Origin: a virus
Length of the DNA stretch: 20,401 nt
Reading direction: 5' to 3' (one strand)
IMG/VR virus record: IMGVR_UViG_3300039159_000766
Location: 1-20,401 of that record
Every line of letters begins with the position of its first letter. The stretch's first letter is position 1. The translations under genes were made by a program, and so were the position numbers. The notes beneath the pieces were generated by a model. The model saw nothing but the letters and a program-made list of their open reading frames with translations, made no database searches and was not told where the DNA came from. Of this stretch, positions 4,945 through 15,711 are shown piece after piece.

Positions 4945-5958
4945 ATGACCAACACTGATATTTATTCCGTTCTGGAATCAAAGCCTCACAACCCACACTA
5001 TCTAAAGCGCTACTGGAAGTTTATCCAATCTTGTTCTAATGATGGGGCAAAGTATACTGAGAAACATCACATTTGCCCAAAAGCGAAGGATTTGTTTCCT
5101 ATGTTTATCAATGTTAAATACTTCCCCTGGAACAGTATAGACTTAACAGCACGACAACACTTTTTGGCCCATAGAATGCTTTGGAAAGCTTACGGGGGTT
5201 CTATGGCTTATGCGTTTTGGTCTATGTGCAATCTTTGGACTAGCAAAAATCTTAAGCGGGATAACTTAAAAATAAATTCTAAAACTTATCAGAGACTAAA
5301 AACTGAGATTAATTTATTAAACAAAAAACTATTCATCGGTAAAGCTTCATATGTGGATATTTTGGGTGTTAGTCATTGCGTAGAAACAAATCACCCAAAA
5401 GTTTTATCTGGGGAATATTTAAGCACGACTCTTGGGAGAAAACAACCATGGGCCGAAAGATCCATCGAGAGCATGGAAAAAAGACGTCAGAATTGTAAAG
5501 ATGCTAAATGGGCCCAATATCCTATTCGGGTAAAGACTCTTTATAAATCTGAATTGAAAAAAGAAGTAAGTTATACCAAAGAAGGAAATGAACTAGATAG
5601 ATACTATAAGTCTGGATGGGTAGATAAAGCCACCAGAGAATATATATCACAAGTCCGTATAAGCCAGAATAATAAAAGATCCAGTGAATCAAGGACTCGG
5701 GCAGCCAAAAACATATCACTAGCCGCAGACCAGCGCAAAGCTGGAATAAAGCGTTGTAAACTTTACTATAAACTGGGTGTGTTTATGGAGCTAGATCCTA
5801 AATTTGATAGTATCATCGGCTGGTCTGTAGTATTTCTTAGAACTGGGAATTCTAGAAGAGTTTTTGGTGATAATGGACTAATAAAGATAGTCGACAAAGA
5901 TATACCCATGCCCCCGGGATATTCTGAATTCCGTAGAGAATCTCTGAAGGCAGCTTAA
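4945..5958 (+). CDS. HNH homing endonuclease
   Basis: The 337-residue protein has an N-terminal HNH nuclease domain: KHHICPKAKDLFP, then WNSIDLTARQHFLAHRML, giving the H-H...N...H metal-binding layout of phage HNH enzymes (about residues 40-80). The C-terminal part is basic and probably recognises DNA. The gene is AT-rich relative to its neighbours, lies on the plus strand directly behind phoH, has its own late promoter and structured leader, and its stop overlaps the end of the convergent zinc-ribbon gene by 4 bases. This is the pattern of a free-standing mobile homing gene. Start ATG 4945 has AGGAG 7 bases upstream. Confidence 0.86.
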   Translation: MTNTDIYSVLESKPHNPHYLKRYWKFIQSCSNDGAKYTEKHHICPKAKDLFPMFINVKYFPWNSIDLTARQHFLAHRMLWKAYGGSMAYAFWSMCNLWTSKNLKRDNLKINSKTYQRLKTEINLLNKKLFIGKASYVDILGVSHCVETNHPKVLSGEYLSTTLGRKQPWAERSIESMEKRRQNCKDAKWAQYPIRVKTLYKSELKKEVSYTKEGNELDRYYKSGWVDKATREYISQVRISQNNKRSSESRTRAAKNISLAADQRKAGIKRCKLYYKLGVFMELDPKFDSIIGWSVVFLRTGNSRRVFGDNGLIKIVDKDIPMPPGYSEFRRESLKAA

Positions 5959-6230
5959 TCCATCGTAGTCGGACCCGTGTTCCGACCTGTCTCCAGGTTG
6001 GTTCGCGGGTTTCTCTCTGAGATCTTGGAGAGAACTTCGCCAAACCCGCTGTCCTTTTTGTGTGTCATAAGCCGCTCTGAGTGGCGGGATAGCACAGGGG
6101 TGGAAAGCATATAAACCGAATCCATGCCTCCGCAATGGGGGCACTCTTTCGGTTCATCTTTTTCGGCGATACGGCAACGAACTTCAAACAGCTCATCGCA
6201 TTCGTTACATTTTTTATCGTATGTGGGCAT
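5955..6230 (-). CDS. FmdB-like zinc-ribbon protein
   Basis: ATG 6230 gives 91 residues (MPTYDKKCNECDELFEV...). Four cysteines in CNEC and CPHCGG form a rubredoxin-like zinc ribbon of the FmdB type in the first 40 residues; the tail is basic and polar with no fold recognised. A longer frame upstream exists, but the MPTY start matches how FmdB-type proteins begin. It overlaps the preceding 53-residue gene by 17 bases and the convergent HNH gene by 4. It may be a small regulator; function unproven. Confidence 0.8.
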   Translation of the reverse strand: MPTYDKKCNECDELFEVRCRIAEKDEPKECPHCGGMDSVYMLSTPVLSRHSERLMTHKKDSGFGEVLSKISERNPRTNLETGRNTGPTTMD

Positions 6231-6375: not shown

Positions 6376-6391
6376 AATTTCCTTAATATGG

Positions 6392-6423
6392 GCAGGTTGA
6401 TTGAGTGATAAAGTTCAACCTGC
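6392..6423. other. 9-bp perfect inverted repeat (RNA hairpin)
   Basis: GCAGGTTGA at 6392-6400 pairs perfectly with TCAACCTGC at 6415-6423 around a 14-base loop. It lies in the intergenic gap before the 53-residue gene. No U-run follows on either strand, so it is not a standard terminator; an RNA processing or translation-control hairpin is possible. Confidence 0.65.
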
Positions 6424-6474
6424 AAAACTTCAGCTAGCCTCAAGCGGCGATAGCGAAAAGTGCGTCGTTAGCGT

Positions 6475-6624
6475 TTACTTTGGTTTAGTTTTTGCGTCTA
6501 TCTCTGACGAGTAGCCAATATATCTTACTTCTTTCGCGGTCGATCCTGTGTCATCCCCATCAAAAAGACACAGAATATCTTTTTGGTGGAGATGTCCGGC
6601 GCTGCCCCGGAGTGTCGCAAACAT
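6475..6624 (-). CDS. hypothetical small phage protein
   Basis: ATG 6624 to TAA 6477-6475 encodes 49 residues (MFATLRGSAGHLHQKDILCL...), with FDGDDTGSTAKEVRYIGYSS following. Composition is protein-like and acidic in the middle. It lies 33 bases after the 123-residue gene. The ribosome site is weak. No family recognised. Confidence 0.5.
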   Translation of the reverse strand: MFATLRGSAGHLHQKDILCLFDGDDTGSTAKEVRYIGYSSEIDAKTKPK

Positions 6625-6657
6625 TTCTTATAACCAGTTTACTACTATTCTTTTTAT

Positions 6658-7029
6658 TTAGTGTATGTACTCATTGGGTGGAGCTGCTTCCTCAGACTCC
6701 TCTGAAACTAGAAAATCCGTAACTCTCTTGGCATACTGGATAGGTTTTACCCCGGCCTCAATAATCATAATCTCATTTTTGAAATTGGGTGCCAAGGCTG
6801 ATGCTGTCGATATAGCTTGATAAATGGCGTCATCAATATTTGCAGAGTAGATTGTTGTGACCATTGAAACAGCGTGATGTACTTCTGGATCAGGTTCCAA
6901 CGCAACCCCCACAAATCCGATGGTTGGGTTGTAGAGAACTTCTCCCTCACTCGAAAATCTGTAGACTGTAAGAAAGAAAAAACTGGCGTTCATCATGCCC
7001 ATCGGCTCGATGGCGGTAAAATCCTTCAT
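6658..7029 (-). CDS. hypothetical phage protein
   Basis: The 123-residue protein begins MKDFTAIEPMGMMNASFFF; its start overlaps the stop of a 25-codon gene (ATGA, 7029-7026), with AAGG-like bases not evident. It reads as an alpha/beta domain with FYRFSSEG-like and SANIDDAIYQAISTASAL segments and an acidic, proline-containing C-terminus. No family recognised. Confidence 0.72.
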   Translation of the reverse strand: MKDFTAIEPMGMMNASFFFLTVYRFSSEGEVLYNPTIGFVGVALEPDPEVHHAVSMVTTIYSANIDDAIYQAISTASALAPNFKNEIMIIEAGVKPIQYAKRVTDFLVSEESEEAAPPNEYIH

Positions 7030-7347: not shown

Positions 7348-7963
7348 TTGCCCATTCCTTTCCTTGTCGTTTGCATCGTTTCAATGAGCGCTTGTGTAGC
7401 AATTCTGGTGTTGTTGGGTCCTCGATCCCAACGATTGAAGGTTTTACCTGATGAAAAACACCTGACGGAAATTCCCCTGGCTTGGTATCCGCATTAGAAT
7501 CCAAACGAAGATAACCAGCGTGATGGCCCATGATGTAATAATCAACATCTACAATATGCAGACCAGATACTACGCGGGAACCTTTTTTCGTGATGGTGTT
7601 TATATCCTTCGAGCCATTTTCAATCTTGCGCATCACAGAAGTTTTACGCATTGCGCTCTTGATATTGCCGATGATCACATTCCGCAGCAGGTTATCCACA
7701 AACATCAGCTCATCCGGGTGAACACCCTCAACCTGTAGATTGATACCGGTGGCCTCTTCCCGCAAGAGCCGCAGCAGGTTTGCCGCAACTTTTGTCTCCA
7801 TGCTCTCAGTCGTGACCGCGGTCACGACGCCAGCCACATTGGTGTTGAAGGCGTTCACCCGGACCGTGCACGCCCGACTCAGCTTTTTGCTGTCAAGCTC
7901 AATCAAGCGGCGCGCCAGGTAGTTGGCTGCAGGAGTTTTCCCGAAGGTATTAAGATCTAACAT
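7337..7963 (-). CDS. hypothetical phage protein, 208 residues
   Basis: Reading from ATG 7963 (with a GGAAGA ribosome site) gives MLDLNTFGKTPAANYLARRL... The frame is open upstream to 8173, but that part overlaps the previous gene fully and looks like a shadow. The middle is helical and basic (NIKSAMRKTSVMRKIENG); a beta-rich part follows (RVVSGLHIVDVDYYIMGHH). It overlaps the 83-residue gene by 14 bases and its end holds the start of the frameshifted gene. No family recognised. Confidence 0.72.
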   Translation of the reverse strand: MLDLNTFGKTPAANYLARRLIELDSKKLSRACTVRVNAFNTNVAGVVTAVTTESMETKVAANLLRLLREEATGINLQVEGVHPDELMFVDNLLRNVIIGNIKSAMRKTSVMRKIENGSKDINTITKKGSRVVSGLHIVDVDYYIMGHHAGYLRLDSNADTKPGEFPSGVFHQVKPSIVGIEDPTTPELLHKRSLKRCKRQGKEWANGV

Positions 7964-8201
7964 TTTCTTCTTCCGTAATTTGGACAAGTAGGCCCTGATC
8001 GTTGGGTTCGTAAACACCAGAGCCACCAGGGGTGATTTTCTCTGGTGATTCAGTGAAAGGGCTTTTGATGAAAGCCTGTTTGATATTTTCTTCACCGATG
8101 CCATGGGCTTTGCAAAATTGAATGGCATCGTTTTGTTTGTTTGAAAAGTGAACGATTCGATCGTTCTGATCATATACTATACATCCTATTCGCCTGAACA
8201 T
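7950..8201 (-). CDS. hypothetical small phage protein
   Basis: The 83-residue protein (MFRRIGCIVYDQNDRIVHFS...) starts at ATG 8201, overlapping the RNA ligase stop (TAATG), so it is coupled to the ligase. The first half looks like a small alpha/beta domain; the second half is acidic. No family recognised. Confidence 0.7.
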   Translation of the reverse strand: MFRRIGCIVYDQNDRIVHFSNKQNDAIQFCKAHGIGEENIKQAFIKSPFTESPEKITPGGSGVYEPNDQGLLVQITEEENVRS

Positions 8202-9340
8202 TAAAAACCCTTATAACTTGGCCCGATGAACTGTCGGATAGATTCAACCGTGGATGAAGACGAGCAGTTCTTGATCAGGAATTCCTTGAATCCGGTCGAA
8301 CCTCTGTTCTTTAGAGAAAACAGGAACTTGGTGTATTCTGGGTGAGCCTGGGCCCAAAAAGCATACTCGCGGTCAGGCAGTCCAGCATCAACAGCAGGGC
8401 CATAAAGCCCATAGATAATCTGAGCGTGCTTGGTTAAATGCTTCAAAACCGAAGCTTGATATGCAACCATACGAGCCCGACGCTCCTCGGATACCAGGGG
8501 TAGAAAATCATCCAGAGTCCCATTTAGAACCAACTCGAGGACGTTCTTTTCGTGCTGAATCACGTCAAGGCTTCGGTGAAGCAAGCAGTACTGATCTGCC
8601 TTGATTTTAACTCGGAAGCCACTATCAAAGGTTATCACCACGCCCTCAGCGTCATCCCACAGTTTCACTTCTGCAGCGATTTCCCGAATGGTAGATTTGT
8701 TATCCAGGATCTCTTTTACAATTGGAATAAGACCGCTCGTATATAACTCAAGTTCAGTATAGTTACAATAATCCCCAGTCCAGTTATCACGGGCAGCAAG
8801 TAGAGTTAGAGCAGCTTCAGGATAGTCAATCACGACCTGATTTTCGCGTGAAGTATACTCAAAGATTGGCGTAACATTGTCTTTTAGACACTTCAGAAAA
8901 AATGCCTCGTATGAACCCTTTAGGGGTGAGTTTTTCACGAACCGTTCGGCCATATCTGAATAATCAGTCATGCCCGCGCGAGTTCCAAGACGGTAATCGA
9001 AACTATCGATGCCATCACCAAAAGCAATGAGACGAATCATCGACCCATCCAACTTTTCTAGGATAGAAAATGGTTCAGTAAAATCAATATCTTTCTCGAG
9101 CCAACCTTCACATTCGCCCAGATTGTGGAATTTATCCAGAGCAAGACTGCAGATCAAGCCATCTTGATCAAAGCATGTGCCGCGCAGATTTTTCAGGATA
9201 AGGGTTTCGCGTTCATTTTTTCCCACAAAAGTGCCGGGCATTGTGAGATTGTAGTCGATCACAGAAAACCCATCCCGCTGATTGTGGGAGAACTCAGACT
9301 TGTCTTTTATTGCTTCTAGAGCTTCATTCAAATTGAACAT
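8201..9340 (-). CDS. rnlA: T4 RNA ligase 1-type RNA ligase (Rnl1)
   Basis: The 379-residue protein is close to the length of T4 Rnl1 and carries nucleotidyltransferase motifs in order: motif I EKLDGS with the AMP-accepting Lys96, motif III PIFEYT (Glu161), motif IV EGVV (Glu232) and motif V VKIKADQY (Lys245, Lys247). Rnl1 enzymes use ATP to join 3'-OH and 5'-phosphate RNA ends; in T4 the enzyme works with Pnkp to mend host tRNA cut in the anticodon loop. No Pnkp is seen in this window. It is the first gene after early promoter P3. The interrupted tRNA-Leu gene at 15152-15408 is a conceivable local substrate, which is speculation. Confidence 0.92.
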   Translation of the reverse strand: MFNLNEALEAIKDKSEFSHNQRDGFSVIDYNLTMPGTFVGKNERETLILKNLRGTCFDQDGLICSLALDKFHNLGECEGWLEKDIDFTEPFSILEKLDGSMIRLIAFGDGIDSFDYRLGTRAGMTDYSDMAERFVKNSPLKGSYEAFFLKCLKDNVTPIFEYTSRENQVVIDYPEAALTLLAARDNWTGDYCNYTELELYTSGLIPIVKEILDNKSTIREIAAEVKLWDDAEGVVITFDSGFRVKIKADQYCLLHRSLDVIQHEKNVLELVLNGTLDDFLPLVSEERRARMVAYQASVLKHLTKHAQIIYGLYGPAVDAGLPDREYAFWAQAHPEYTKFLFSLKNRGSTGFKEFLIKNCSSSSTVESIRQFIGPSYKGF

Positions 9341-12151: not shown

Positions 12152-13039
12152 TTAGAATTCTGCTACACGGGGCGTGAGCTGTCGCAACTTATGTTTAATG
12201 CAATATTCAAAAATTGCATTCCGATCGGCTTTGTCTGGTGCCATCTTATACTGAGCAATGACCCGGTCCCGCAAGTCTGTTGGAACAAACGCGGAGCTAA
12301 TTAGAACCTCATTCCGCTTGTAGCGGGCGAGTTCGGCTTCGCTCAGGATGGATAAATTCGAGAACTTTTCAACCACCTTCTTGGTAACGGGTATGGCTCT
12401 ACCGTACTTATCCCGGTTTATCAGAAAGTCATCTGGCATCAGGACCGATGGCACACCATCACCCTCATCGCCGGCAATAATCTTATCTACCAGGAAAGTT
12501 GAGACTGGTTTCGGAACAACCTTCTTTACTCGGGGGCTCCATTGGGCATAGTTCTTGTGCTTGTACTGCTGCAGAAAGTCGTGATCCGAGGAGATATTCA
12601 TCACCCGCTGAGCTGATTCCTCTAGGCCGTCTTGTACAAAATCATTTTCCGCGAAGTAATCCGAGAGAATGAAGATGATGTCGTCGCCTTCGGCCTGATC
12701 GTCCTGAAGAACTTTGTAGGGGAACATCGTGGCGAGTTCGAGTTTTACGTCTCCCAGGATGGAGAAGATAGAGCCCCAGTCGGTATCCGATTCCTCGCGC
12801 TTGGCTTTCCGCATACCCTTGTATTGGGGAAAAACAGTCTTGCGCCAGTTGGCTTTTCCGTCACAGGCTATCACAAGATTCCCGCACTTGCTGCCCCAGG
12901 CCTTTTTGTAGCCCAGGAGAGAAGTTAGGAAAATGTGGCGGGCGATTTGGCCCATCTTTTCGGTGGGCTCGCCTTTTTTGAAGTCGTTGGTGAAGGCAGT
13001 CACGGACGCAATGAACACATTGCTATAGTCGATAAGCAC
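12152..13039 (-). CDS. rnh: T4-type RNase H (5'-3' FEN-like exonuclease)
   Basis: The 295-residue protein carries the acidic sites of the FEN/T4 RNase H family: LIDYSN (Asp4), ACDGK (Asp60), AEGDDII (Glu117, Asp119, Asp120), SSDHDF (Asp152, Asp154) and GDEGDGVPS (Asp191, Asp194). It removes RNA primers and short flaps from lagging-strand fragments. The start is GTG 13039; the AAGGGG ribosome site lies 12 bases away, with the palindrome GGAATACTATTCC between, so an in-frame ATT six bases upstream is an alternative start. It is first after early promoter P5, and the DsbA-like gene is nearby, as in T4. Confidence 0.93.
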   Translation of the reverse strand: MLIDYSNVFIASVTAFTNDFKKGEPTEKMGQIARHIFLTSLLGYKKAWGSKCGNLVIACDGKANWRKTVFPQYKGMRKAKREESDTDWGSIFSILGDVKLELATMFPYKVLQDDQAEGDDIIFILSDYFAENDFVQDGLEESAQRVMNISSDHDFLQQYKHKNYAQWSPRVKKVVPKPVSTFLVDKIIAGDEGDGVPSVLMPDDFLINRDKYGRAIPVTKKVVEKFSNLSILSEAELARYKRNEVLISSAFVPTDLRDRVIAQYKMAPDKADRNAIFEYCIKHKLRQLTPRVAEF

Positions 13040-13897: not shown

Positions 13898-14692
13898 ATG
13901 ACCAACAAAACTATTTATGTACCCGATGCCCCGAATGTAAAGTTTTATCACTATACATACATCATTTCTCATCTTGAGACCAATAAGCATTATATTGGTG
14001 TCCGTACTAGCAAAGTTGATCCAAATTTAGACCTAGGCGTGAAGTATTTTAGTTCTTCTACTGATCGACAATTCAAGGCTGAATTACGTAAGAATCCAAC
14101 CGCCTTTAAGTTTCAAATTATTGAAATTTGGGGCTCCAGAAAAGATGCACTTCTGCATGAAATTGATCTCCATGCTCTTTATGAAGTTGGTATTAGTCCA
14201 GAGTTTTATAATATAAGGAGAGCTACATCCTCCGGCTTTGATATGCTTGGGGCCAAACACTCAGATGCGGCGCGGACAAAGATATCTGCTGCACATAAAG
14301 GTCGTGCCCTTTCAATTGAACATCGCGCCAAAATATCCGCCGCAAGTAAAGGTCGTGCCCTTTCAATTGAACATCGCGCCAAAATATCCGCCGCACACAA
14401 GGGTAAAAAACGGTCAGAAGAACACTCAGCAAAAATAGCGGCCGCATTGAAAAATCCTTCTCAAGAAACAAGGGCAAAGATATCTGCTGCACAAAGGGGT
14501 AAAAAACTGTCAGAACAGGCACGCCAAAATATTAGTGTGGCGAGCAAAGGTAAATCAAAATCAGAAGCTCATCGTGAAGCAATGAGAAAACCTAAGACGG
14601 AAGAGCATATAAAAAACTCCCAGGCGGCTATGGCAAAAAATAGATTGGCTAGGTTAGAGGCTCAAATGGCTACCACTACCCACATAGAATAA
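13898..14692 (+). CDS. GIY-YIG homing endonuclease with NUMOD3 repeats
   Basis: The 264-residue protein starts with a GIY-YIG nuclease domain: YHYTYIISHLETNKHYIGVR (diverged GIY-YIG pair), then a basic stretch and LLHEIDLHALYEV with the conserved Glu. From about residue 115 come NUMOD3-like DNA-binding repeats (RTKISAAHKGRALSIEHRAK and similar), two of them virtually identical at DNA level. It is plus-strand, between minus-strand dsbA and the DUF6321-like gene, with its own late promoter and structured leader; it ends 1 base before the convergent neighbour. This is a mobile free-standing homing gene. AAGGAG supports ATG 13898. Confidence 0.92.
   Translation: MTNKTIYVPDAPNVKFYHYTYIISHLETNKHYIGVRTSKVDPNLDLGVKYFSSSTDRQFKAELRKNPTAFKFQIIEIWGSRKDALLHEIDLHALYEVGISPEFYNIRRATSSGFDMLGAKHSDAARTKISAAHKGRALSIEHRAKISAASKGRALSIEHRAKISAAHKGKKRSEEHSAKIAAALKNPSQETRAKISAAQRGKKLSEQARQNISVASKGKSKSEAHREAMRKPKTEEHIKNSQAAMAKNRLARLEAQMATTTHIE
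14296..14397. repeat. 51-bp tandem repeat in the NUMOD3 region
   Basis: Units at 14296-14346 and 14347-14397 are identical over the first 49 bases. The period is 17 codons, one NUMOD3 unit (KGRALSIEHRAKISAA). The near identity indicates recent duplication. Confidence 0.92.
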
Positions 14693-14693
14693 A

Positions 14694-15113
14694 TTACCCA
14701 CACCGCCACTTATCTAATGCTAGCTTTTTTCTGGTCGGGGTTCCGTCTGGATTTTTCAGGGGCCCCTCGACACCAGTCATCCTTGCGCAAAAGCTTTTTC
14801 GGCGTTTTGCTGCCTTGCTATCTGGATCTAATTCCGATGGGGGTGTGGTTACAGGGGCCTTAAGGTTGCTTCCGTTCTCCCGGTTGTAGTGATCGCGGCC
14901 CTTCTGGGTAAGGCCGCCGGTAGGGCTTTTGTGCCCTGCTCGATCCTCGTTGGTCTGGGAGTTTTTAAGATCCGCGTCCGTGGGAGCGCCTTCGGAGCCA
15001 GGCTTGCGCATAGTCTCCTTTGAGCCGTTTTTGATTCGTTCCCTCTTTTTGTGGATGTTAGCCCAGAGACCGTCGGCTTCGTTTAGGCCGAAAAATTCTT
15101 TGAATGATAGCAT
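14694..15113 (-). CDS. DUF6321-like phage protein, late-expressed
   Basis: The 139-residue protein begins MLSFKEFFGLNEADGLWANI and has HKSPTGGLTQKGRDHYN, SNLKAPVTTPPSELDPDSKA and AKRRKSFCARMTGVEGP, which match my recollection of the DUF6321 family found in T4-like phages. It is very basic and probably extended; the SFKEF start is common among virion-associated T4-like proteins. A TATAAATA late promoter lies 29 bases upstream, consistent with a virion role, which remains inference. Confidence 0.83.
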   Translation of the reverse strand: MLSFKEFFGLNEADGLWANIHKKRERIKNGSKETMRKPGSEGAPTDADLKNSQTNEDRAGHKSPTGGLTQKGRDHYNRENGSNLKAPVTTPPSELDPDSKAAKRRKSFCARMTGVEGPLKNPDGTPTRKKLALDKWRCG

Positions 15114-15151: not shown

Positions 15152-15408
15152 TGGTGCGTGTTACTGGATTCGAACCAGTGATCAATCCAAAATTGCTGAA
15201 TAGTTTGTGGGAAAGTTTACGCAATACCCATTCAAAAAATCTGTTAGTTATAGACAAAACAAACATCAAAAAGTTGAATGAAATTAAATGGTCCATCCGC
15301 CCAGAATCGAACTGAGATAACATCGATTATGAGTCGAGCATTTTACCTTTAAATTAAAGATGGAACTATATCTGAGTACCCTGCTTTAGGCCTCTAAGCT
15401 AAACACGC
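15152..15408 (-). tRNA. interrupted tRNA-Leu(CAG)-like gene with a tRNA nested in the anticodon loop
   Basis: The 5' part (15408-15370) has acceptor GCGTGTT, TA, a D-arm GCTT/AAGC with GG in the loop, A, then GGGTA and a loop CTCAGAT with anticodon CAG at 15374-15372. The 3' part (15202-15152) has TATTC, a class II variable arm CAAT/ATTG, a T-arm ACTGG-TTCGAAT-CCAGT, acceptor AACACGC, A73 and encoded CCA. The acceptor halves pair perfectly over 7 bp; the anticodon stem GGGTA/TATTC pairs with two G-U pairs. Summed, the halves make a 90-base tRNA, right for leucine. The 167-base insert holds a full tRNA(CAU). It may be a processed gene, a split tRNA, or a pseudogene. Confidence 0.6.
15289..15363 (-). 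tRNA. tRNA with CAU anticodon (Met, or Ile2 if modified)
   Basis: A 75-base cloverleaf: acceptor CCATCTT/CGGATGG (six of seven pairs, one G-U), D-arm ATTT/AAAT with GG in the loop, anticodon stem CTCGA/TCGAT (four of five pairs) with loop CTCATAA and CAT at 15331-15329, T-arm CTCAG-TTCGATT-CTGGG, A73 and encoded CCA. It lacks the initiator features (three G-C pairs in the anticodon stem). It lies wholly inside the insert of the tRNA-Leu-like gene, directly after the 6 bases ATAGTT. Confidence 0.85.
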
Positions 15409-15429: not shown

Positions 15430-15711
15430 TCAAGCATTTTGGACGACCGGAGCCAAATTATAGGTGACGCCCTCGAAGCTGTAGCTGGTAACCTGCTCGA
15501 AGTTGAAACTTCGGAATTCACTCACATCGACATCCACGACTTTAAAGAGGCCTTCTTTTTCAACTTGAGTGGTCACCGAGCCTTCGCCGGAAAATAGTGG
15601 GGCCATGACTTCTGGAATCTTGGTGCATTTCATAACACGAACCGAGCCGTCTTTCTTGGTGAAGGTAACTTCCACCACGCCGGTTTTCAAAAAAGTGTTT
15701 AGTTGTTCCAT
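15430..15711 (-). CDS. WYL_2/DUF2693-like SH3-barrel phage protein
   Basis: The 93-residue protein has a GVVEVTFTKKDGSVRVMKCT start and VDVSEFRSFNFEQVTSYSF later. This is the pattern I recall for the WYL_2 (DUF2693) family of small phage proteins, which end in a V-x-D-x-E...RSF strand. It is beta-rich. ATG 15711 has AGGAAA upstream. It is the last protein gene before the tRNA locus, which begins 22 bases further on, so the tRNAs may be cut from the same transcript. Confidence 0.77.
   Translation of the reverse strand: MEQLNTFLKTGVVEVTFTKKDGSVRVMKCTKIPEVMAPLFSGEGSVTTQVEKEGLFKVVDVDVSEFRSFNFEQVTSYSFEGVTYNLAPVVQNA

Follow-up and report, generated by a model that had tools for sequence, protein, structure and literature searches.

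How does a complete tRNA gene come to lie inside a second one, in its anticodon arm, and does the outer gene still yield a tRNA of its own? The question is raised by a locus on the minus strand (15408-15152) of a phage DNA stretch of 20,401 nucleotides, hereafter the window, in which two tRNA halves flank a complete tRNA(CAU). An earlier note had read the outer halves as an interrupted tRNA-Leu(CAG) and had offered three origins: an unusual intron, halves rejoined after maturation of the inner tRNA, or a gene broken through recombination between tRNA genes. The parts of the locus are as follows.

15430 to 15711, minus strand: WYL_2-domain gene (PF10902), directly upstream; a syntenic anchor by synteny with the related loci L209/L211/L217
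15373 to 15408, minus strand: 5' half of the outer gene, assigned below to tRNA(CAU), with acceptor GCGTGTT, D-arm, anticodon 5' strand GGGTA and loop start CTCA; pattern TAGCTYA..GG..RAGCAGGGTACTCA of a phage tRNA(CAU) family
15372 to 15378, minus strand: left near-direct repeat TACTCAG, of which TACTCA is tRNA sequence
15186 to 15372, minus strand: 187-nt insert that, from alignment to L219/L209 family members, appears to replace the seven family bases TAATGCC (anticodon third base to anticodon stem)
15364 to 15369, minus strand: ATAGTT, left arm of a 6-bp complementarity
15289 to 15363, minus strand: inner tRNA, complete, with anticodon CAU and encoded CCA (ARAGORN; Rfam RF00005, 45.6 bits)
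15186 to 15288, minus strand: remainder of the insert, 103 nt, A+T-rich, of no known RNA family, with no phage match and no group I or II intron
15200 to 15205, minus strand: AACTAT, right arm of the complementarity
15196 to 15202, minus strand: right near-direct repeat TATTCAG
15152 to 15185, minus strand: 3' half of the outer gene, with TTGATC, T-arm, acceptor AACACGC, A73 and CCA; the variable-loop TTGATC is shared with L216/L219/L223, and the acceptor pairs 7/7 with the 5' half
14694 to 15113, minus strand: DUF6321 gene (PF19846), directly downstream

The outer stems are fully paired (acceptor 7/7, D 4/4, T 5/5). The acceptor halves are GCGTGTT (15408-15402) and AACACGC (15162-15156), the latter followed by A73-CCA; the D-arm reads GCTT AGAGGCCTA AAGC, and the T-arm, ACTGG TTCGAAT CCAGT, lies 5' of the second acceptor half. 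Between the halves, the insert consists of a linker, the inner tRNA, which carries the mismatches U7/C66 and C27/U43, and the 103 nt. The acceptor halves with A73-CCA, the D-arm and the T-arm described in the earlier note are all present where it had placed them, as are the complete 75-base inner tRNA(CAU) with its own CCA (ARAGORN call and 45.6 bits, 15363-15289), the ATAGTT/AACTAT complementarity and the TACTCAG/TATTCAG near-repeat.

With introns allowed and at the default threshold, ARAGORN called the outer gene at c[15152,15408] as Leu(CAA) with a 167-nt intron. The check by ARAGORN and covariance models that the earlier note had proposed bore out the inner tRNA, and with introns allowed it returned the outer gene, as CAA and not as CAG. 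When both flanks were dinucleotide-shuffled and the inner tRNA was retained, 0 of 4000 sequences gave an enclosing tRNA call, so the outer halves are not a product of chance. Related phage loci totalling 1.88 Mb, in which ARAGORN made 416 tRNA calls, contained no other free-standing nested case, and the remaining enclosing 'intron' calls all overlap complete array tRNAs. Taken together, the flank shuffles and this survey indicate that the outer halves are real pieces of one tRNA gene. The nested layout comes from one metagenomic contig (n=1).

In its arm AAAGCAGGGTACTCA the outer 5' half matches a tRNA(CAU) family common in phages, and we take this family to resemble E. coli ileX, tRNA-Ile2. 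IMG/VR was searched, with the window's own record excluded, for the 5'-half pattern TAGCTNARNGGN{1,6}RAGCAGGGTACTCA, in which the third anticodon base is left free. All 30 matching stretches were intact tRNA(CAU) genes, none being a tRNA-Leu and none interrupted, and they typically continued as CATAATGCCTTG[AG]TC. The closest family members, L219/L223 (GCGTTGGTAGCTTAGTGGCCTAAAGCAGGGTACTCATAATGCCTTGATC...) and L216, have TAGCTTAG.GG..TAAAGCAGGGTACTCA and TTGATC in common with the outer gene. Besides the D-arm-to-anticodon pattern of this ileX-like family, the outer gene shows its variable loop/T-arm motif TTG[AG]TC and a CCA-tailed acceptor complementary to the 5' end. It lacks a contiguous CAU with the TAATGCC 3' strand, the insert following CTCA instead, and is therefore a broken member of the family. 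With TAATGCC restored between them, the outer halves make up 77 nt, the length of the L219 gene, and ARAGORN then reads Met(CAU).

The position of the gene leads to the same family. Three relatives that are apparently one phage (L209/L211/L217) are colinear with the window through p15724, WYL_2, tRNA(CAU), p13459, RNase H and AAA, and an intact family tRNA lies 8 nt behind their WYL_2 gene; the outer gene of the window begins 21 nt behind its own. The earlier note had advised a look at homologous loci, and these gave an intact tRNA(CAU) at the same position in L209/L211/L217 and the insert in none of the compared relatives. Three closer relatives (L206, L208 and L164; 64-82% in most proteins shared with the window, 44-48% in WYL_2) lack a tRNA between WYL_2 and DUF6321. 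Both its sequence family and its position mark the outer gene as a tRNA(CAU), and specifically as the disrupted ortholog of a tRNA(CAU) that stood behind WYL_2 in the ancestor. It resembles the phage tRNA(CAU) genes of the ileX/tRNA-Ile2 type (L209, L216, L219, L223 and others) in its 5' half, its TTGATC variable loop, its 77 nt once the seven bases are restored and, for L209/L211/L217, its position; those genes are uninterrupted, whereas in the window 187 nt that include a second tRNA(CAU) split the anticodon arm.

The reading that we favour, with a probability of roughly 0.8, is that a recent one-off insertion disrupted one tRNA(CAU) and supplied another, rather than that the locus is a new leucine tRNA with an intron. 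The tRNA(CAU) behind WYL_2 would have received, in its anticodon arm and in place of TAATGCC, a 187-nt segment that carried another tRNA(CAU). The inner tRNA(CAU) would be the working gene, the one transcribed and used, with RNase P forming its 5' end and nucleases its 3' end as in other phage tRNAs, in which case the insertion swapped one CAU tRNA for another. The outer halves would now be leader and trailer, whose acceptor and T stems may still form but which would give no charged tRNA; their stems would still be perfect because the insertion is recent. Of the three origins in the earlier note, the third, a gene broken through recombination between tRNA genes, is the best supported.

Several observations weigh against this reading. 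Intact outer stems would be expected of a functional gene too; they point either to a recent break or to stems that matter, and to no more. The inner tRNA, with its two mismatches, is no clear improvement on the outer gene; real introns, too, lie in the anticodon arm, where the break is; and the ATAGTT/AACTAT pairing and the repeats are without a proven cause. Anatomy, family, locus and the lack of the insert in every relative are established here; the argument that the outer gene has no function is built on homology and null models.

The near-direct repeats TACTCAG/TATTCAG hint that the insert arrived through target duplication at the anticodon loop or by recombination between short repeats there. 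In shuffled sequences, TAYTCAG lay as near the right border (within 25 nt) in 0.2% of cases; this test was chosen after the repeat had been seen. Outside the inner tRNA, the insert matched no group I/II intron or other RNA family in Rfam up to E 10. Among 50,697 phage records there was no full-length BLAST match of the locus, the window, the joined 90-mer or the inner tRNA; exact patterns for the outer 3' half and the inner anticodon arm had 0 matches in IMG/VR, and the interrupted 5' pattern and the intact pattern ending TTGATC had 0 in 84,980 prokaryote genomes. A literature search on nested or tRNA-in-tRNA genes found nothing relevant.

The locus could also be the remnant of two genes, tandem copies of the outer tRNA around the inner one, the first of which lost its 3' half and the second its 5' half through deletion or decay. 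The matching acceptor halves would then follow automatically, TATTCAGCAAT is similar to TACTCATAAT, and tRNA genes are rearranged in this phage group. However, the gene would have had to break twice at one point, and no significant similarity to a tRNA 5' half was found in the 103 nt between the inner tRNA and the outer 3' half (anchored P 0.25, local P 0.31), on which ground a decayed second copy in this stretch was rejected. We consider this origin unlikely.

If the outer gene were an intron-containing tRNA-Leu(CAG or CAA), RNase P and 3' nucleases would cut the precursor as they mature the inner tRNA, and the outer halves, held by the acceptor and anticodon stems, would be trimmed and joined by a phage T4-type RNA ligase. 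The ARAGORN call of Leu with a 167-nt intron at c[15152,15408], a joined 90-mer with all arms, G15-C48 and A73, and a T4 Rnl1-type ligase gene nearby (8201-9340) are consistent with this. However, the 5' half is of the CAU family, and the leucine features recur in null models. With the conserved halves fixed (through CTCA, and from TTGATC) and the insert alone shuffled, ARAGORN reported an enclosing spliced tRNA in 3000/3000 sequences and 'tRNA-Leu' in 1406 of them (47%); random 7-mers between the halves yielded a tRNA call in 92% of cases. Of 20,000 shuffled inserts, 13% contained both a strand complementary to GGGTA and, at class II distance, a variable arm of 4 bp or more, so that the anticodon stem and long variable arm expected of an intron-containing class II tRNA-Leu do not exceed chance. 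Given the 3000/3000, 13% and 92% rates, class II structure is unsupported beyond chance.

The anticodon itself depends on the junction. CAG is made up of CA from CAU and the first base of the insert, ARAGORN reads CAA, and alternative junctions give SeC or Ser. No tRNA-Leu was found among the sequence relatives; those of the anticodon arm are CAU, and the Leu tRNAs of the compared phages are unlike the outer gene. On family membership and the null tests, a tRNA-Leu identity of the outer gene was rejected: the earlier note was right that a tRNA(CAU) sits inside the anticodon arm of another tRNA gene, which by family and position is a tRNA(CAU) and not tRNA-Leu(CAG), and its class II leucine identity did not hold.

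Neither processing cut falls at a usable junction, so before ligation both sides would need precise trimming, one of 5'-GATATAGTT-type leftovers and the other of about 83-103 nt. Such phages often encode T4-type ligases without having split tRNAs, and no second example of the layout was found. Rejoining by the ligase encoded at 8201-9340 is chemically conceivable but unlikely, and nothing here points to it. For the earlier options of an unusual intron or rejoined halves no positive evidence emerged, the suggestive features occurring at chance frequency given two CAU halves. We regard an intron-containing tRNA-Leu as quite improbable, and as very improbable the broader proposal of a bacteriophage tRNA with another tRNA as its intron, excised by inner maturation, with the outer halves joined by a phage RNA ligase into a second tRNA. 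If the outer halves did rejoin, this would be a new route to two tRNAs out of one nested gene.

Known interrupted tRNAs are alike only in part. PMC4090602 cites Reinhold-Hurek and Shub 1992 for group I introns in bacterial tRNA anticodon loops, and the interruption there is likewise in the anticodon region; the catalytic core is absent here by Rfam at E 10, and the window's insert is largely a tRNA gene. Archaeal and eukaryotic tRNA introns are spliced by proteins, and an archaeal tRNA-Trp intron holds a nested box C/D RNA (PMC4090602), a functional RNA within a tRNA interruption as in the window, where the nested RNA is a tRNA. At the borders in the window no bulge-helix-bulge (a 4-bp helix flanked by 3-nt bulges) was seen by eye. 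The tmRNA of the phage implies a bacterial host, unlike those systems. In permuted and split tRNA genes the halves also lie apart in the DNA (PMC3978253), whereas the window has them in normal order and gives no evidence of processing.

A structural role, in which the outer halves form a clamp (acceptor and T-arm) aiding processing or stability of the inner tRNA, is most improbable: the outer stems are intact and the minimum-energy fold of the whole precursor includes the outer acceptor and T-arm, but the layout is not conserved in any relative and other phage tRNAs need no clamp. A metagenome assembly artefact is hardly credible, since, although the layout is on a single contig, both flanks are colinear with relatives and the border repeat, of only about 7 nt, is too short to mislead an assembler.

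On the favoured reading of a recent insertion, the locus would illustrate tRNA turnover in phages, with one CAU tRNA giving way to another that was inserted into its anticodon arm. The locus also calls for caution, as intron-aware tRNA callers report a spliced tRNA of other identity when the halves of one gene flank any insert.

Other tRNA-related and mobile features were seen in these phages. The window has two homing endonuclease-like genes, at 4945-5958 (+) and 13898-14692 (+), the latter adjoining the DUF6321 gene; neither is found in the otherwise colinear L162/L206. A free-standing tRNA-Thr(GGT) with a 48-nt intron, called by ARAGORN in L173 (2896-3037), overlaps no complete tRNA and is due to chance or is an interrupted tRNA. 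In L209 (about 7670-7737), a degenerate tRNA-like sequence (GGGTTATAGTTC...AAACCCA) that receives no ARAGORN call lies directly behind the intact tRNA(CAU). The tRNA array of L203 (about 5930-6030) contains a tRNA-like sequence with matching ends (CACTG...CAGTG) and seemingly two T-arm-like hairpins, which seems to be another sign of tRNA gene rearrangement. Finally, the window carries a permuted (two-piece) tmRNA gene at 6384-6691 (-; RF04321 112 bits, RF01850 95 bits), conserved in L162 at 12446-12790 (ARAGORN tag AKTKTRVNANATQSDEFFALVA); two-piece tmRNAs are known from aquatic phages (PMC9004378).
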